Part shown: positions 11,266 through 45,809 of the stretch, one piece after another
Position numbering within the stretch: the stretch's first letter is position 1
Layout of the letters: each line of letters starts with the position of its first letter
Assembly (NCBI GenBank): GCA_937928775.1
Contig: CALFVI010000038.1
Coordinates: 1 to 64,000, forward strand
Source: an uncultured Elioraea sp.
Lineage (GTDB): Bacteria > Pseudomonadota > Alphaproteobacteria > Acetobacterales > Acetobacteraceae
Reading direction: 5' to 3'
DNA length: 64,000 nucleotides
Translations under genes and position numbers: made by a program
The notes under the pieces: model-generated
What the model was told of the DNA's origin: nothing
Databases searched by the model: none
The model's input: only the letters and a program-made list of their open reading frames with translations

Positions 11266-12719
11266 TCGGCATCCTCGGCATCGTTCTGTCGCTGGGCCTG
11301 CTCATCCTTCTCGCTTTCCGCGGCTTGACCGTCCTTCTGGTCGCTCCAGCCATGGCGGTGCTCGCTGCCGCCTTTGACGGCGGCATGCCGCTGCTTGCCA
11401 CCTACACGCAGATCTTCATGCGCGCGGCGGCCGACTTCATCGCGCAGTTCTTTCCGCTCTTTCTGCTCGGTGCCGTGTTCGGCAAGCTGATGGAGGACAC
11501 GGGCAGCGCTGAGGCTCTGGCCCGCGGCCTGGTGGCGAAACTGGGGGCGGAGCGCTCCATGCTCGCCGTCGTGCTCGCTTGTGCCGTGCTCACCTATGGC
11601 GGCGTGTCGCTGTTCGTCGTCGCCTTCGCCGTCTACCCGATCGCCGCCGCCCTCTTCCGCCAAGCCGACATCCCGAAACGGCTCATGCCCGCCGCCATCG
11701 CGCTCGGCTCCTTCACCTTCACCATGTCGGCCCTTCCCGGCACGCCGGCGATCCAGAATGCGATCCCGATGCCGTTTTTTGGCACCACCGCCTTCGCTGC
11801 CCCGGGGCTCGGTATCATCACCGCGTTGGTGATGCTCGCCTTCGGCCTCGCGTGGCTGACTTGGCGCGAACGCAGCCTGAAGGCGAAGGGCGAAGGGTAC
11901 GGCGCGGCCGATGGCGAGCGGGTCAAGCCAGACAAACGCCTGCGCGAAGCCGCGCAGGATGAGGGGTTCGACCTGATGGAGATCGGCGACCACCCCGCCC
12001 CTGCCGGCACGCCCCTTCCGCGCGCCTGGCTTGCCGGCCTGCCGGTGGTGCTGGTGGTCGCGGTCAATCTGATCGTCACCGCCTTCGTCATCCCCCGCCT
12101 CGACACGGCCTATCTTGCCGAAGCGCGCTTCGGTGCCACCGACATCGCGGCCGTGCGCGGCATCTGGGCAATCATCGCGGGGCTTCTGGTCGCGATCCTC
12201 TTCCTCATCCTTGTCAATCGTTCGCGCCTCGCTTCGCTCTCCCGCACACTGGACGACGGCGCCAACGCCTCCGCCCTGCCGATCTTCAACACCGCGTCTC
12301 TGGTCGGGTTCGGGGCGGTCATCGCCTCGCTCGGCGCCTTCGCCACTCTCCGCGATCTGGTGCTCGGCGTCGGTGGCGGCAGCGTGCTGATCAGCCTCGC
12401 CTTTGCCGCCTCGGTCCTGGCCGGCATGACCGGCTCCGCTTCAGGCGGCATGACCATCGCGCTGCACGCGCTCGGTGCGACCTATCTCGAGATGGGTCAG
12501 GCGGCCGGCATCGCGCCCGACCTTTTGCATCGCGTAACCACAGTTGCAACCGGCGTGCTGGACACGCTGCCGCACAATGGCGCCGTCATCACCCTGCTCG
12601 CCATCTGCCGCCTCAAGCACGGCGAGGCCTACGGCGACATCGCCATGACCGGGATGGTCGGCCCTCTCCTCTCCCTCGTGGTGCTGGTCGGTCTCGGCAG
12701 TCTGTTCGGCTCGTTCTAG
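11262..12719 (+). CDS. GntP-family permease
   Basis: Multi-TM; GGVSLFVVAFAVYPIAAALFRQADIPKRLMPAAIALGSFTFTMSALPGTPAIQNAIP typical of GntP family. Confidence 0.85.
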   Translation: MIGILGIVLSLGLLILLAFRGLTVLLVAPAMAVLAAAFDGGMPLLATYTQIFMRAAADFIAQFFPLFLLGAVFGKLMEDTGSAEALARGLVAKLGAERSMLAVVLACAVLTYGGVSLFVVAFAVYPIAAALFRQADIPKRLMPAAIALGSFTFTMSALPGTPAIQNAIPMPFFGTTAFAAPGLGIITALVMLAFGLAWLTWRERSLKAKGEGYGAADGERVKPDKRLREAAQDEGFDLMEIGDHPAPAGTPLPRAWLAGLPVVLVVAVNLIVTAFVIPRLDTAYLAEARFGATDIAAVRGIWAIIAGLLVAILFLILVNRSRLASLSRTLDDGANASALPIFNTASLVGFGAVIASLGAFATLRDLVLGVGGGSVLISLAFAASVLAGMTGSASGGMTIALHALGATYLEMGQAAGIAPDLLHRVTTVATGVLDTLPHNGAVITLLAICRLKHGEAYGDIAMTGMVGPLLSLVVLVGLGSLFGSF

Positions 12720-14203
12720 CGCACTCGCTGCAGCAATCGCGGCGCGAAGAGAATGCCGGCGGCGACAAGCCAGAGGCCGAGGGCAATGGGACTTGCAAAA
12801 AGCACCAACACCTCGCCCCCGGAGAGAGCGAGCGCGCGACGGATGTTGTCTTCGATCAGGCGGCCGAGCACGAGACCAAGAAGCATCGGAAGAAGCGGTA
12901 CTCCGGCCTTTCTGCCGGCCCAGCCGAGCACACCGAAGGCGATGGCGAGGAAAAGATCGCGCACGGAGTTGTTCACCGCCCACACCCCGGAGAAGGCGCA
13001 GGCGACGACGGTTGGAGAGAGCGCCCAGGGCGGCAGCGCGAGAATCCGGATGAACAGCCCAACAAGCGGAAGATTGAGTACGAGCAGAACGACGTTGCCG
13101 ACAACGAAGGAGGCGATCAGTCCCCACACAATCTCAGGCCGCTGAATGAAGAGAAGCGGTCCTGGCGTGATGTTGTAGAGCATCAGGGCACCGAGCAGAA
13201 CGGCGGTGGTTCCCGACCCTGGAATGCCTAGCGCCAGCATGGGCACCATCGCGCCTGTCTGCGCCGCGTTGTCGGCGGTCTCCGGCGCGGCGACTCCCCG
13301 GATGTCACCAGTGCCGAACGTGCCCGTGCGATCGACGAGGCGACGCTCGAGCGTCCAGGACAGTGTCGCCGCGATTGAAGCCCCGGTTCCCGGCAACACG
13401 CCGACGACAAAGCCGACCAGAGCCGCGCGCAGCATCGTCGGCAGGGTATGCAGAATCTCTCCGATGGCGGGAAAGGAGCGTCCGAGCGGTGTCGAAACGA
13501 GCGAAACCATCGCTGCTCGCTCCTCGATGAGCGTCAGAACCTCCACAACGGCGAAGAGGCCGATGACCACGACCGTGAAGTCCACCCCATCGAGAAGTTC
13601 GAGTTCGCCGAATGTGAAGCGCTCGATGCCGGTTCCGCTGTCGGTGCCGACCGCGGAAAGCAACAGCCCGAAGGCTGCCGCCGCGATGGACTTCGCAGGG
13701 CGTGCACCGCCGACGCCTGCGAGAAGGGCGAAGGCGAAGACCATGAGAGCAACATATTCCGCCGGACCAAAGGCGAGGGCCGCGCGCGCGATCGCCGGAG
13801 CAGCGAGGATCATCAACACCGTCGCCCCCACCCCACCGATGAACGAACCGATTGCAGTGATCGACAGCGCGAGGCCACCCTCGCCGCGTCTTGCCATCGG
13901 GTAACCATCCAACGTTGTCATCACGGACGAGGGATCGCCCGGCACGTTGAGCAGGATGGCGGCGATCCGCCCACCATATCCGCCACCGTAATAGACCGCG
14001 GCAAGAACGATCAACGCGCTCTCCGGCGGCAGTTTTAGCGCATAGACGAGAGGAAGCAGGAGGGCGACCGCGTTCAGGGGCCCGATTCCCGGCAGTGCGC
14101 CGACAGCAGTGCCGACAAAGGCCCCGATCGCGGCAAGGGCGAGGTTCAGGGGGGTGAGCGCCACCGCGAAACCGGCACTGAGGGAATTGAGCGTTCCGCT
14201 CAT
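12716..14203 (-). CDS. Tripartite tricarboxylate transporter permease, TctA family
   Basis: GALPGIGPLNAVALLLPLVYALKLPPESALIVLAAVYYGGGYGGRIAAILLNVPGDPSSVMTTLDGYPMARRGEG. Confidence 0.95.
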   Translation of the reverse strand: MSGTLNSLSAGFAVALTPLNLALAAIGAFVGTAVGALPGIGPLNAVALLLPLVYALKLPPESALIVLAAVYYGGGYGGRIAAILLNVPGDPSSVMTTLDGYPMARRGEGGLALSITAIGSFIGGVGATVLMILAAPAIARAALAFGPAEYVALMVFAFALLAGVGGARPAKSIAAAAFGLLLSAVGTDSGTGIERFTFGELELLDGVDFTVVVIGLFAVVEVLTLIEERAAMVSLVSTPLGRSFPAIGEILHTLPTMLRAALVGFVVGVLPGTGASIAATLSWTLERRLVDRTGTFGTGDIRGVAAPETADNAAQTGAMVPMLALGIPGSGTTAVLLGALMLYNITPGPLLFIQRPEIVWGLIASFVVGNVVLLVLNLPLVGLFIRILALPPWALSPTVVACAFSGVWAVNNSVRDLFLAIAFGVLGWAGRKAGVPLLPMLLGLVLGRLIEDNIRRALALSGGEVLVLFASPIALGLWLVAAGILFAPRLLQRVR

Positions 14204-14628
14204 CCGATCACGCCCCGCGGCAGTGGGATATCGCGCCCCCGGTCGATGAGAGCCCAGAGTGCGACGGAGCCGAGGATCCCATAGGCTGCAGCCGCGATGA
14301 GGCGAGCGCCAAAGAGCAGAGCCCCGCCCGCAAGGACTGCCGCGGTCGTGGGGAGGAAACCGAGCAGGCGAAGCGTGGCGGCGTAAGCGGCCAGCCACGC
14401 GACAGCCGCCACCAGGAGAAGGAGGCACCTCAGACCCGGCCAGCGCGCGCCCTCGCGCGGAGCAAAGCCAATCGCCGCTCCGCAGAGGACGGGTGCACTC
14501 CCCGCAAAAGCGGGGAAGGCGCGCGGGCCCACGGGGTCGCCGGCGAACCGCACCTCCCACGAAACCGCCAGGAAAACCGCGGCGCCTCCGACCAGAACAA
14601 GCAGTGCGCCGACGACTCGATCCGTCAC
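14200..14628 (-). CDS. Tripartite tricarboxylate transporter TctB family protein
   Basis: Small 4-TM protein overlapping tctA. Confidence 0.8.
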   Translation of the reverse strand: MTDRVVGALLVLVGGAAVFLAVSWEVRFAGDPVGPRAFPAFAGSAPVLCGAAIGFAPREGARWPGLRCLLLLVAAVAWLAAYAATLRLLGFLPTTAAVLAGGALLFGARLIAAAAYGILGSVALWALIDRGRDIPLPRGVIG

Positions 14629-14652
14629 GCCCGGTGGCCCGACGAGCCGAGG

Positions 14653-15200
14653 CTACTGCACCAAGCCAATCTCACGGAGGAGCAAGCGCATTTCGCTGAC
14701 CCTCTGGATCGCCAGCGCGGTGAAGGCGTCCCCTGTCGAGGGGAAGGCGAACAGGCCCGCCTTCACCCGTTCCTCGACGAAGCGCGAGTCTGCGGTGAGG
14801 CGCGCCATCGCCTCGACCCAGAATCGATAGGCTTCGTCAGGAGCTGCAGGCGGCATGTAAAGCACGCGCACGATCGGCCATTCCACCGCAACACCCTGTT
14901 CCCGCGCCGTCGGCACGGACGCGAACGGGCCCGGAAGACGTTCCGGTGCCAGAACGGCAAGCAGCCTGATCCCGCCGGCCTCCAGCTGGCCCTTCACCTC
15001 GGACGCATCGCCCGGGAAGACTTGGATGTGGCCGCCGAGCAAGGCCGCCATCGCCTGGCCGCCGCCCTCGAAGCTCGCGTAACGAAGCCGACGCGGGTCG
15101 ACACCGGCCGCGCGTGCAACAAGCGCGACCTTCATCCAATCCTGGCTGCCGACGGTGCCGCGTGCCCTCGATGAACCATGAACGTCTCTCCCTGCAATCA
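14653..15200 (-). pseudogene. 5'-truncated TctC/Bug-family substrate-binding protein (C-terminal part only)
   Basis: GTVGSQDWMKVALVARAAGVDPRRLRYASFEGGGQAMAALLGGHIQVFPGDASEVKGQLEAGGIRLLAVLAPER...; no signal peptide or N-terminal half before the adjacent glycosyltransferase. Confidence 0.75.
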
Positions 15201-17572: not shown

Positions 17573-17959
<387 letters not shown>

Positions 17960-17962
17960 TCT

Positions 17963-18326
17963 CGTTTGGCCTCGCCCAGCGCATTTCTCGGGGAGACAGC
18001 AGCAGCGTGCAGCGATCGCCCGCGCGCTCGCCATGCGTCCGCGCGTCCTGCTGTTCGACGAGCCGACCTCCGCGCTCGACCCCGAACTCGTGGGCGAGGT
18101 CCTGCGCGTCATCAGAGAGCTCGCAGACGAAGGGCGAACGATGCGTCTTGTGACGCACGAGATAGGCTTCGCACGCGAGGTGGCGGATCGCATCGTCTTC
18201 CTGCACCAGGGGCGGATGGAGTGCGATGGGCCGCCCGGCACGCTGTTCACCGATCCGCCTTCGGAACGGTTCGGCGCCTTCGTCACCCGCTTCCGCGAGG
18301 AGGAACGGCTGCGCGGCGCATGGTGA
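17963..18326 (+). pseudogene. C-terminal fragment of amino-acid ABC transporter ATPase (HisP/GlnQ type)
   Basis: [72 protein letters not shown]; no Walker A region upstream. Confidence 0.88.
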
Positions 18327-18717: not shown

Positions 18718-21387
18718 TTAGCCGGCAAAGGCGGGTGCCGCGGCGAGTGTGGCGCGCACGGCCTCGAGCGCCGCCTCCGCCTTGTCGCCCTCAGGCCCGC
18801 CCGACTGTGCCATGTCGGGACGGCCGCCACCGCCCTTGCCGCCGACTGCGGCGGCCGCCGCGCGCACGAGTTCGACTGCAGAGAAGCGTGGCGTCAGGTC
18901 AGGCGACACCGCGACCACGATCGAGGCCTTGCCGTCCATCGGCGAGACGAGTGCGACCACACCGGAGCCGAGGCTCCGGCGCAGCTCGTCCGCGAGGCCC
19001 TTCAGATCCTTCGGCGCCACCTCAACGATACGTCCAAGGAACGAAATGGAGCCGATTCGTTCCAGCCCTGCCGCTACACCTACGGCACTTGTGGCAAGCT
19101 TGCGACGCAGGTCGGTGACCTCGCTCTCGAGCCGGCGCTTTTCGTCGATGAGCGCCTCCACACGTGCCGGCACCTCGGACGGTGGGGCGCGAAGAGCAAC
19201 CGCGACCAACAGCAATGCGCGTTCCATTGCCGCGACATGCGCCAGCGCCGCCTCGCCAGCGACCGCCTCGATGCGACGCACACCCGCCGACACCGCACCT
19301 TCGGACACAATCTTGAACAGCCCGATATCGCCAGTCGCGCGCACATGCGTCCCGCCGCAGAGTTCGACCGAATAGAGCCCACCGCGCGCCGTCGCCTCGG
19401 GATCCGAGCCCATCGAGACAACCCGCACCTCCTCGCCGTACTTCTCGCCGAACAGCGCGAGAGCACCCTGCTTCACCGCCTCGTCTGGCGTCATCAGCCG
19501 GGTGACGACGGGAGCATTCTCGCGCACGCGCGCGTTCACCTCCGCCTCCACCCAGGCGAGCTCCTCAAACGTGATCGGCTTCGGGTGGCTGATGTCGAAC
19601 CGCAGCCGATCTGGCGCGACGAGCGACCCCTTCTGAGCCACGTGAAGCCCCAAGCGGCGCCGAAGCGCCTCGTGCAGAAGATGCGTGGCGGAGTGATGGG
19701 CGCGGATTGCTGTGCGTCGCGCATGGTCGATTTCCGCCACCACGGCCTGACCGACGCGGGCGATCCCCTGCTTCACGCGCCCCTGGTGCACGAACAGATC
19801 GCCAAGTTTTTTCTGCGTGTCCGTGATCTCAATGACCAAGCCGTCCTGCGTGCGGATCGTTCCGGTATCACCCACCTGCCCGCCTGACTCGCCATAGAAC
19901 GGTGTCTGATTGAGCAGGATGGCGACCTCATCGCCGCCCCGCGCCTCGTTGACCGGCTGGCCATTGGCAACGATGGCACGAATCTCGGCTTCTGCCATCT
20001 CCGCCGTGTAGCCGAGGAACTCGGTGGCGCCGAGTTTCTCCTTGAGGTCAAACCACACAGCCTCCGTCGCTGCCTCGCCGGAACCCACCCAGGCCGCGCG
20101 GGCACGCGCGCGCTGCTCCGCCATCGCGCGTTCGAAGCCCTCGACATCGACCCCGCGGCCTTCCGCCTTCAGCGCATCCTGGGTGAGATCCAGGGGAAAA
20201 CCGTAAGTGTCATACAAGCGGAAGGCGACCTCACCCGGCAGCGGCACGCCGCGCGGCAATTTCGCTGTCTCCTCGGCGAGGAGATGCAGTCCGCGCTCCA
20301 GCATTGCACGGAACCGCGTCTCCTCCGTGCGCAGGGTTTCGGTGATCAGAGCCTCCGCCCGGCCGAGTTCGGGGTAAGCGACGCCCATCTGGCGGATCAG
20401 GGCCGGCACGAGGCGCCACATCAGGGGTTCGCGCACGCCCATCAGATGCGCATGGCGCATGGCACGCCGCATGATTCGGCGCAGCACGTAGCCCCGCCCC
20501 TCGTTGGAGGGAAGCACCCCGTCCGCGATCAGGAAACAGGAGGCGCGGAGATGATCCGCCACCACGCGATGGCTGATTCGGTGCGGCCCGTCCGGGTCGG
20601 TGCCCGAGGCCTCGGCGGAGGCGAGGATGAGGGCGCGCAGCGTATCGGTATCGTAATTGTCGTGCTTGCCCTGCAGGATCGCCGCCGTCCGCTCAAGCCC
20701 CATGCCAGTGTCGATCGAGGGCTTGGGCAGCCGAACGCGCCGCCCGTCCGGCAGCTGTTCGTACTGCATGAAGACGAGGTTCCAGATTTCGATGAACCGA
20801 TCGCCATCGGCATCCGCGCTGCCCGGCGGCCCGCCCGGGATTTCGGGCCCGTGGTCGTAGAAGATCTCGGAACATGGCCCGCAGGGGCCGGTGTCGCCCA
20901 TCGCCCAGAAATTGTCGGCGGTGGCGATGCGGATGATACGCTCGTCCGGCAGCCCCGAAACCTTGCGCCAGGCTTCCGCCGCCTCGTCATCGTCGTGGTA
21001 GATGGTGACGAGGAGCCGCTCCTTCGGCAGGCCGAACTCTCGCCTGACAAGGGTCCAGGCGAGTTCGATCGCGACATCCTTGAAATAGTCGCCGAAACTG
21101 AAATTGCCCAGCATTTCGAAGAAGGTGTGATGACGAGCCGTGTAGCCGACATTGTCGAGATCGTTGTGCTTTCCGCCCGCGCGGACGCATTTTTGCGCCG
21201 TCACCGCGCGCGTGTAGGGGCGGTGTTCGAGCCCGGTGAATACGTTCTTGAACTGCACCATCCCCGCATTGGTGAACATCAAGGTCGGGTCGTTGCGCGG
21301 GACGAGCGGGGAACTCTCCACCACCGTGTGGCCGTGGCGACGGAAGAAGTCGAGGAAAGCGGCGCGGATGTCGTTCGAGGAAGGCAT
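18718..21387 (-). CDS. alaS: Alanine--tRNA ligase (start MPSSNDIR at 21387; in-frame ORF extends upstream to 21810)
   Basis: [52 protein letters not shown]; full editing and C-Ala domains. Confidence 0.96.
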
Positions 21388-21458
21388 GCGACGAAAATAG
21401 TCCCGTGCCATCGCCGCCGAAAGGCCTTCGGGAGACAGGTTAGAAGGGGTGTTCGTCA

Positions 21459-21810
21459 ACGGTGATAGGGGGCGGGAAGCAGCGAGGCTATCGCCAGCCG
21501 CCCGCGCCCGCGCAGGATCACAGTCCGCCGCATGGTCGAACAGGTGTTGGCAGCAGAGCCCGCAGGGTGAAACGACGGCGATCCGGCCTTGTTCGTCGGG
21601 CCTCCGGTGGCGCACCGCGACCACTGCCTCAATGGTGCTCTCTCCGCCCATGACCGCCGCGCCGACTGCCACCACCTCGGCGCAGACCGCCGCCCTGCCG
21701 ACAGTCGCATCGAGATTGACCGCCGCGTAGATGCGCCCCGTGGCGCCGCGCCCCCCAGTGTGGCGGCCATAGCGATAGCGCTGGCGTACGGCATCCACAG
21801 CCGCTTCCAC
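21459..21810 (-). pseudogene. Cytidine/blasticidin-S deaminase-like protein, apparently frameshifted near 21515; in-frame with alaS in one frame
   Basis: VGRAAVCAE and SPCGLCCQ zinc motifs; expected C-terminus [22 protein letters not shown] found in another frame directly after HAAD. Confidence 0.75.
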
Positions 21811-21895
21811 GAGCGCCCGGTCGGCCGCTCAGAGGAGAGGCGCGAGAGAACCTTCGGCCTTCACGGCCGCTGCAGCCGAAAGAGACGGAAGCCGC

Positions 21896-22930
<1,035 letters not shown>

Positions 22931-26292: not shown

Positions 26293-26352
26293 CGGAGCCG
26301 TCACTTCGCGCCGCACCGACCGCGCGTCACACTCATCGGCGAGGAGTGCCCG

Positions 26353-27317
26353 ATGTCCATCCGTTCGCGCCCCATGCCCAGGCCGCTCGATCCCCTGAAG
26401 GTCCGCGACCCGTGTCTCACTGCGAAGGGCGAACCCCGCGCCTCTGTCGCCCTCGAAGCGCTGCGCACGCTGTGGTTCAACACCGGCACGCTGTGCAACA
26501 CTGCGCACATTGCTACATCGAATCGAGCCCGCGCAACGATTGGCTCGTGTATCTGAGCGCCGCGGAGGTGGCCGCCTTTCTCGACGAGGCCGAGGCGCTG
26601 GGCGCGCCGGTTGAGACGGTCGGCTTCACCGGTGGCGAGCCGTTCATGAACCGCGCCCTCCCCGCCATGCTTGTCGACGTGCTCGCCCGGCCCTGTCGCC
26701 TCACCGCCATCGTGCGCACCAACGCCATGGCGCCGCTCGGGCAGAAGCGCGCCACCCTGCTTGCCCGACGCGATCGTTTCGGGCCGGAACGGCTGATCCT
26801 GCGCGTGTCGCTCGACCACTTACGCGCCGATCGCCACGACCTCGAACGGGGCCCGGGCAGTTTTGTCAACGCGATGGAGGGGCTCGCCTGGCTCGCCCGC
26901 GAGGGCTTCACTGTCCATGTCGCGGGCCGGGCAGGCTTCACCGAGGAAACCTAGGACGCGCTAAGCGAGGGCTTCGCCCGCTTGTTCACCGAACGCGCGA
27001 TCCCGATTGATGCAGAGGGTCCCATCGCGCTCACCCTGTTCCCCGAGATGGACCCGACCATCGACGTACCGGAGATCACGCAAGCCTGCTGAAGCATCCT
27101 CGGCAAGAGCCCGGCGAGCGTGATGTGCGCCACCTCGCGCATGGTGGTGAAAGGCAAAGGGCGGAGCGCCGGGCCGTGGTCGCCTGCCCCCTCCACCCCT
27201 CCGACCCGCAGTTCGAACTTGACGCCACCCTCGCCTCTGCATCACGGCCTGTGCAACTGAACCACCCGTACTGGGCGAAGTTCTGCGTCCTCGGCGGTGG
27301 TGCCTGCAGCCGCTGAG
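26353..27317 (+). pseudogene. Radical SAM family protein pseudogene (frameshift plus several stops)
   Basis: LWFNTGTLCN(frameshift)AHCYIESSPRNDWLVYLSAAEVAAFLDEAEALGAPVETVGFTGGEPFMN...; in-frame stops at about 26954 and 27091. Confidence 0.85.
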
Positions 27318-42326: not shown

Positions 42327-42456
42327 CGATCCTTGTTCCCCTTCACCCTAGCCGCAACCTCATTCGACCCAGCCTATCCCCGTCGAGCAGCTGGATAGCC
42401 GGCTCCTGACAACATCCGAATCTGACGAGGCCACACCACCCCTCTGGCGCTCTTGC

Positions 42457-44038
42457 TCATGTTGGAGAAAGCATAATCGGGATCTTGATCACGCCCATCA
42501 CGCTGCGCCGATGCGCTGACGGGCTCGGCAACTGCCCGAGCGGAATGTCGGGAACGACGCAGAACGCCTCGCGCTGGATCTCGGTCACGATCCGTTTCTG
42601 CATGGCTTCGTTCAGCGCTTCAAACCATCGCTCGCGCTGGGCCTCCATGCGCTTGCTCGTCGGCACGGCGAACCAAGGCCTCGGTCCCATTCGCGCGCAT
42701 CGCAGGTGTCGAGTTGGGCTCCACCCAAGCAGGCCCAGACCAGATCTTGTGGAAGATATTCCACCCGCCGAGCTCGATCGGCTCGCGCCATGCACGCTGC
42801 TGCACCACCGTACCCCAGTCGGTTGCGACGAACTCGAGCGTGGGGTCGAGTCGGTGCAAAAGGTCTGCGGTCACCTGGCTAAGCCCGGCGAGGCCTGGAA
42901 AGTCGGAGGCAGTGATTTGCACCACGCGCTGCCCGGCATACCCTGCCTCGCGCAACGCTGCACGCGCTCGGTCGAGACTTTTGACGCGGAGTGGCTCAGA
43001 ACCCTCCTTGGTCTGCATCGGCCTGCTGCGTGACCGGAAACTGTGCGACGTCGCATACATGCCGCGGTCGTCGCCAACCACGGCGAGAAGAAAATTCTCC
43101 TCATCGACTGTGAGCATCAGGGCGCGGCGCAGCGCCCGATTGTCGAAGGAAGCAACCAGGTGGTTGAAGCGCAGCATACCGACCGAATCGGTCCGGTCGC
43201 GCACCACAAGCTCGATGTTGCAATTGCGACGAAGCACCGGAAGGAGGTCGTGCAAGGGAATTTCCGAGAATTCGACTTGCCCCGACTGCAGGGCTGCCCC
43301 CGCAGTCGCCCGGTCCGGAATGATGTGCCGCTCCATCCGCCCGGCTTTGGCAAGTTTCGCCCCCGCCGTCCCATCTGTGGGTTCCCGTCGTGGCACGTAT
43401 CCATCGAACCGGGCACAGACGAGACGTAAGCCCGCGCTCCACCCCTCGCGCACGAACCGATACGGCCTCGATCCGAGCTCCGAGGTGATCTGTGTACGCG
43501 TGTCTGTCCCGGCAACACTGTCTGGCATCACAAAACAAGGCAAAGCGTTCGCCTTGCCGTTTGCCTTCATGGGGAGCGCGAAGGGTTTCTGCAGTGTCAG
43601 TCGCAGGTGACGATCGTCGACCGCAACAACGTGGGCCGCATGGCGCTTAGCAACCTCCTGCCCGAACCCGTTGCGCGCCAACCATCTCTGGATGGGAGCT
43701 CCCACATCGCGCGCGGTCACCTTTTCGCCGTTGTGGAACCGCAAACCGTCGCGCAAGGTAAACGTGTTGACCTTGCCGTCGTCCTCGATCGGCCACCCTT
43801 GCGCCATCTGTGGCAGCGGATGGAACAAGGAATGCAGGCCCAGCAACGTGTCGTACACGAGGTAGGCATGAGTGCGGGTGATGGTGGCGGTGGCCCGGAT
43901 TGGATCGAGTCTGGTGAGGTTGGCCTGTGGAACACCGCGCAGGACGCGCACAGCCGATGCCTGACCAAACACGCCAGACGCGGTGAACCTTGCTGCACCG
44001 TCGACCGCAGCGTCAGGAAGGTCTGGCCGCCTCATCAC
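42457..44038 (-). pseudogene. Dipeptide-type ABC substrate-binding protein, frameshifted and divergent
   Basis: ORF 42620-44038 resembles the next two SBPs (FVATDWGTVVQQRAWREPIELGGWNIFHKIWSG) but the C-terminal segment (RWFEALNEAMQKRIVTEIQREAFCVVPDIPLGQL) lies in another frame. Confidence 0.8.
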
Positions 44039-44114
44039 AGGCTCTGCCTCAGGCCTTGGACACGCCCCAGAACCAGGGCAGAGGCCCCGGCACTATGCCC
44101 GAAACGTTCGTCCG

Positions 44115-45647
44115 TCACGCCTGATAGGCGCGATAGAAGCCTGTCGGCGTGAAGGGCTGGCTGATCATCGCCGCCCGATTGATCTCCTCACACGCGGCGC
44201 GCTCTTCCTCCGCGTTGCGGGCGACGAACCACTTGTCGCGCCCACGCTCAATGGCCGGGTCGTTCGGCCAGCCGAACCAGGCCCCTTCGCCGTGCGCGCG
44301 AAGCCCAAGATAGCTCGCCGGATTGGTGCAGTCCGCACCGGCGAACCAGGTGAAGAAGATGTTCCACCCGCCGCGCTCGCGCGGTTCCCGGCTCGCCCGC
44401 CGTGCGCCCACCGTGCCCCAGTCCGTGGCGACGTACTCGACGTTCATCCCGATGCTGCGCAGAAGCGCGTTTGCCACCTGGCCCATGGCAGAAAGTGGTG
44501 CGAGGTCCTGCGCCACCAGCATCACTACCGGCTCGCCATTGTAGCCTGCCTCCTGCAGGAGCCGACGCGCCATGGCCGGATCGCGCGTGTTCTTCAGGAT
44601 CTCGGAGCCGGCCTCGGTGTAGTTGGGCGTCTCCGGCGTGAAGTAGCTGAACATCGGCCGCCACAGGCCATCATCGCCTCCCACCACCGCGCGCATGAAG
44701 TCAGCCTGATTCACCACCCAGGCGATGGCTTGACGGGCGCGCACGTCGTTGAACGGCGGATGGAGATGGTTGAAGCGAAGGCAGCCGACATTGCCGAGGG
44801 GATCGGCGATGTCGATGCGGATGTTGCGGTTCCGGCGCAGCACGGGGACGAGGTCGGTCAGCGGTGTTTCCCACCAGTCAACCTCGCCGGCTTGCAGAGC
44901 CGCTGCAGCCGTCGCGGGGTCAGGCTGGATGATCCACTCGATGCGATCGACCAGCATGCGCTTGCCGCCCGAAAGCCAGTTCGGCGGTTCGTCGCGCGGC
45001 ACATACTGCTCAAAGCGGCTCCAGGTGGCGCGCGCCCCGGGCACCCATTCGGCACGGTTGAAGCGCATCGGGCCCGAGCCGACGAACTCCGTGATCTGCT
45101 GGAACGGGTCGGTCTTGGCAATCCGCTCCGGCATCATGAAGGCGATCGGCGTGTTGTTCTTGCCGAGCGCGAACAGGAGTTTCGGATACGGAGCCGACAG
45201 GCGAAGCCGGAATGTGCGATCATCCACCGCCACCAGTTCCTGGCGCAGGGCGCGGATCATCTGCCCCATGCCATCGCGCACCATCCAGCGCTCGAGGCTC
45301 GCCACACAGTCGCGCGCCAGGACCGGTTCGCCGTCGTGCCAGCGCAGGCCAGGACGGAGGCGGAAGGTCCAGGTCAGCCCATCGGCGGAAACCTCCTCGG
45401 ACTCCACCATCTGCCGGCGCGGGGTGAAGCTGTTGTCGATGCCGTACAGCGTGTCCCACACCAGCATCGAGGCGTTGCGGACGACGAACTGCGTGCCCCA
45501 GATCGGGTCGAAGTTGGCGAGGTTTGCCTGGGGGACGAACCGGAGGACGCGGGCGGCACCCTGCGCGATCGCGGGCGCCGGCAACCCGGTCGCCGCTCCT
45601 GCCGTCAACGCTGCCGCTGCCTTGAGAACGCTGCGACGCTTCATCAT
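44115..45647 (-). CDS. Dipeptide-type ABC transporter substrate-binding protein
   Basis: MMKRRSVLKAAAALTAGAATGLPAPAIAQ signal; SBP_bac_5-like sequence. Confidence 0.93.
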   Translation of the reverse strand: MMKRRSVLKAAAALTAGAATGLPAPAIAQGAARVLRFVPQANLANFDPIWGTQFVVRNASMLVWDTLYGIDNSFTPRRQMVESEEVSADGLTWTFRLRPGLRWHDGEPVLARDCVASLERWMVRDGMGQMIRALRQELVAVDDRTFRLRLSAPYPKLLFALGKNNTPIAFMMPERIAKTDPFQQITEFVGSGPMRFNRAEWVPGARATWSRFEQYVPRDEPPNWLSGGKRMLVDRIEWIIQPDPATAAAALQAGEVDWWETPLTDLVPVLRRNRNIRIDIADPLGNVGCLRFNHLHPPFNDVRARQAIAWVVNQADFMRAVVGGDDGLWRPMFSYFTPETPNYTEAGSEILKNTRDPAMARRLLQEAGYNGEPVVMLVAQDLAPLSAMGQVANALLRSIGMNVEYVATDWGTVGARRASREPRERGGWNIFFTWFAGADCTNPASYLGLRAHGEGAWFGWPNDPAIERGRDKWFVARNAEEERAACEEINRAAMISQPFTPTGFYRAYQA

Positions 45648-45809
45648 TCGGTCCCTTGCCCGCTTGTCCCAGACATCATTGGCCTGCGCGACCGCGAAGG
45701 CCTCCCTGCTGCCATCCCGTTCGTCCACGTGGCGGGTGGCATTCGTTGCCGATCAGAGTAGCGCCCCGGTTTGGCCATCGCCAAGGGGCAACTGCAGCCG
45801 CGCGTTCGA

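Follow-up and report, generated by a model that had tools for sequence, protein, structure and literature searches.

The 1030-codon open reading frame that runs into alaS on this Elioraea contig is very probably composed of a decaying cytidine deaminase pseudogene and a normal alaS gene, and its fused state is most probably a by-product of decay without functional meaning. The deaminase copy is best regarded as a pseudogene because it carries at least three disabling lesions and shows relaxed selection. The window (the whole analysed stretch of 64,000 nucleotides) contains the following features at this locus, all of them on the minus strand.

21896-22930 (-): recA, intact upstream neighbour that marks the conserved recA-deaminase-alaS order
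21456-21864 (-): cytidine deaminase pseudogene; ancestral extent from the conserved GTG at 21864 to the now out-of-frame stop at 21458-21456, from alignment with genomes G001, G004 and G005
21829-21831 (-): premature TGA, 11 codons past the conserved start; a Ser codon in the relatives
21751-21752 (-): site of a 9-nt deletion that took most of the conserved V-G-A-A-V segment, from nucleotide and codon alignments
21521-21522 (-): site of a 5-nt deletion that, with a 1-nt intergenic change, puts the deaminase remnant in frame with alaS, from alignment
21417-21422 (-): TTTCGG, putative conserved -35 block; CTT-CGG is invariant across all seven Elioraea genomes compared
21394-21399 (-): TATTTT, putative -10 block; a 17-nt spacer separates it from the -35 block, and 6 nt lie between it and the alaS ATG
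18718-21387 (-): alaS, alanyl-tRNA synthetase, 889 amino acids from the ATG at 21387 (TIGR00344, 941.7 bits; cut-off 457)

The deaminase gene in Elioraea and in the window

The open reading frame listing and its translation confirm an unbroken frame at 18718-21810 (-), 1030 amino acids from GTG 21810, which leads from a deaminase-like N-terminus into AlaS as the original prediction described. Its first ~97 residues resemble cytidine deaminases and residues 147-1005 correspond to AlaS (TIGR00344, 941.7 bits). Profile searches with the intact relatives identify the deaminase as a member of NF005314/PRK06848, a cytidine deaminase related to blasticidin-S deaminase and of the PF00383 fold, in agreement with the cytidine/blasticidin type that had been proposed; its best solved relatives are the blasticidin-S deaminases 3oj6 and 1wn5. 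All six other Elioraea genomes hold one copy of this deaminase, with no stop within the match. The order recA-deaminase-alaS is found in the three closest genomes (G001, G004 and G005), where the deaminase is a separate gene whose open frame, intact and 162 codons long, stops 66-67 nt short of the alaS ATG. The gene upstream of alaS in relatives, to which the original prediction had looked for a check, is thus present and intact. The close relatives identified by name are Elioraea thermophila and two genomes from uncultured Elioraea. Among the papers searched, none dealt with both Elioraea and cytidine deaminase, and broader queries likewise returned nothing relevant.

It is evident from the alignment that the window copy spans the whole length of the family and yet differs from it in several respects. 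Intact Elioraea orthologues carry the C-A-E and PCGxC motifs and score 162.9 and 171.9 bits against NF005314, whereas the window copy, with its premature stop, 9-nt core deletion, frameshift and lost conserved residues, scores 94 bits, below the curated cut-off of 131. Similarly, the PF00383 score falls from 36.6 in an intact relative to 23.8 or 17.0 in the window copy (curated cut-off 25). The conserved start at position 21864 is GTG or TTG across the aligned genomes, and between this start and the conserved C-terminal LLPxPYxR the window copy has no uninterrupted frame, owing to the TGA at 21831-21829 and the 5-nt deletion at 21522/21521. The 9-nt deletion removes most of the conserved core VGAA[VLI]R, and conserved residues after PCGLC are also lost (CRELL to CCQHL). 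The zinc-ligand motifs C-A-E and PCGLC (PCxxC) are retained, as had been noticed before, but with the core mostly deleted and CRELL changed, a catalytically intact deaminase does not follow from them.

The 22-residue tail that had been recognised in another frame, inside the open reading frame at 21456-21794, does match the C-terminus of the intact relatives' deaminase and ends at TGA 21458-21456. The indel suspected near 21515 can be placed at 21522/21521, where the loss of 5 nt leaves the native stop in another frame; it is one lesion among several, since the TGA, the change from CRELL to CCQHL and the deletion of 9 nt around 21752/21751 had been overlooked. The intergenic stretch of the window also has one extra base relative to G001, G004 and G005, and the -5 and +1 changes jointly put the deaminase remnant in the alaS frame. 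The TGA, both deletions and the 1-nt intergenic change are unique to the window in comparison with these three relatives, on which the polarity of the lesions is based. Elsewhere in the genome, which is 81.5% complete, there are two further PF00383 matches, which by their length are probably TadA and RibD; no second copy of the alaS-adjacent deaminase was found in this incomplete assembly.

Selection on the deaminase and the start of alaS

We counted the changes found in one lineage only in a codon alignment of the window with G001, G004 and G005. The window deaminase shows 14 non-synonymous and 8 synonymous lineage-unique changes, whereas the deaminases of the three relatives together show about 6 and 35, respectively (P = 1e-4, Fisher's exact test). 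The same contrast is seen with the window's own alaS (14 non-synonymous and 71 synonymous changes; P = 3e-5, Fisher's exact test), which is under purifying selection, and the window recA has 0 non-synonymous and 28 synonymous changes. With only 8 lineage-specific synonymous changes in the window deaminase, the branch estimate is rough. Judged from these counts, the deaminase is the only one of the three genes to have lost constraint, and only in the window lineage.

The start ATG 21387 and the length of 889 amino acids are identical in the four genomes (the window, G001, G004 and G005). Of the two starts previously considered for alaS, ATG 21411 is not conserved in the alignment of relatives, and translation very probably begins at ATG 21387. 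The window AlaS is full-length for its family, with its first 146 amino acids 98% identical to those of the two nearest relatives, and nothing sets it apart except that the frame upstream happens to be open.

Two conserved blocks, CTT-CGG and TAT-T, lie with a spacing of 17 nt in the 36 bases before the alaS ATG of the seven Elioraea genomes. Where ten-base bins include these blocks, column identity reaches 0.83 and 0.81, compared with 0.44-0.56 for the bins covering -80 to -41 and -30 to -21. A consensus sigma-70 scan gave no match before alaS, and the blocks are visible only by comparing relatives. These patterns suggest a promoter belonging to alaS itself and an alaS mRNA that is leaderless or almost so. 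If the mRNA is leaderless, the deaminase remnant would go wholly untranslated. Ahead of alaS, nothing resembling a T-box or other RNA leader scored above the Rfam threshold.

On this reading, selection on the deaminase would have been lost in the window lineage, and the nonsense mutation, the two deletions and many amino-acid changes would have built up. The 5-nt deletion and the 1-nt intergenic change would have aligned the remnant with the alaS frame by chance and so produced the uninterrupted open reading frame. AlaS would still be made as a normal 889-amino-acid enzyme from ATG 21387, probably via its own promoter directly upstream. The fusion protein is presumably absent from the cell, and cytidine salvage may have been lost.

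Decay elsewhere in the window

Decay has also affected several further genes in the window. At 17630-18326 (+) there is a remnant of an amino-acid ABC transporter, in which an N-terminal fragment of a solute-binding protein of family 3 adjoins a C-terminal ATPase fragment and ~2.5 kb of the G001 sequence are missing. A radical SAM gene at 26346-27310 (+), open in G001, is broken by two stop codons and by frame changes. Relative to G001, the solute-binding protein gene at 42446-44035 (-) has a C-terminal frame break, and the neighbouring solute-binding protein gene at 44052-45665 (-) has a late Trp-to-stop change. The conserved genes recA, alaS, cutA, agmatinase and mreB are intact. That core genes are intact while others have decayed argues against general sequence error.

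It was also observed that tripartite tricarboxylate transporter genes at 12716-15135 (-) are absent at the same place in G001 and G005; TctA is apparently complete, and TctC (14653-15135) lacks its 5′ part.

The fused frame and its alternative explanations

An open frame leading into alaS is, taken alone, nothing unusual. Upstream DNA was usable at ~28 alaS loci, and at four of them, counting the window, the frame ahead of alaS stays open for 97 codons or more; such frames are therefore not rare. The open codons before alaS at these loci number as follows.

L031: 500 codons
L037: 164 codons
the window: 147 codons
L033: 97 codons

From translations read by eye, the 500-codon frame of L031 overlaps, in a different frame, an apparently unrelated gene on the same strand, and the 164-codon frame of L037 lies opposite an apparent repeat protein gene. 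Open frames ahead of alaS in GC-rich genomes are thus a weak signal. With its several independent lesions, raised amino-acid change, intact neighbours and other decayed genes close by, the locus resembles the usual bacterial pseudogene in which GC-rich DNA leaves a frame open by chance; it differs in that the remnant happens to share its frame with the next gene.

A functional deaminase-AlaS fusion of ~1030 amino acids, translated from GTG 21810 or from some other start in that frame, would account for the uninterrupted frame and for the retained C-A-E and PCxxC motifs. We consider it very unlikely, as the TGA at 21831-21829 cuts off the ancestral start, the VGAAV core is mostly deleted, the residues after PCGLC are lost and selection on the deaminase part is relaxed. 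In addition, anti-SD pairing at GTG 21810 is weak (-2.5 kcal/mol), none of the three relatives with this gene order has a fused frame, and AlaS still has a conserved start and a promoter-like element of its own. The meaningful fusion raised in the original prediction is thus unsupported in the face of the lesions and relaxed selection, which fit instead the decaying gene that it had offered as another option. It is just as improbable that AlaS is produced in part with an N-terminal extension derived from the dead deaminase, which, if true, would show a pseudogene giving rise to a longer form of a tRNA synthetase. A fusion as a conserved architecture was rejected, the genes being separate in the three relatives with this gene arrangement and no deaminase-alaS fusion being found at the other long-frame loci. 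A programmed frameshift was ruled out because the same gene also has the upstream stop and the core deletion.

The draft state of the genome (81.5% complete, 77 contigs) could be taken to favor an error of sequencing or assembly, with the deaminase gene itself unbroken. A nonsense substitution, 9-nt and 5-nt deletions and a non-synonymous excess within ~400 nt exceed one slip, the locus is well within an 80-kb contig, and recA, alaS, cutA, agmatinase, mreB and other conserved genes on the contig have no frame breaks, so that such an error has very little probability. The shortened remnant, or its translation, might also have been kept for a new role, such as translational coupling to alaS, as it persists and adjoins that gene. 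This we hold to be scarcely credible: the substitution pattern is near unconstrained, no Rfam element is above threshold, and in the relatives the alaS start already lies 66-67 nt past the deaminase stop, behind the conserved promoter-like element.

With the deaminase read as a pseudogene, the open frame implies no new kind of system, and the loss of an NF005314-type deaminase is suggested for one lineage of Elioraea, at a place where several other genes are decaying too. Gene callers may report a 1030-amino-acid "deaminase-AlaS" at this locus, where the likely product is an 889-amino-acid AlaS encoded after a dead gene.
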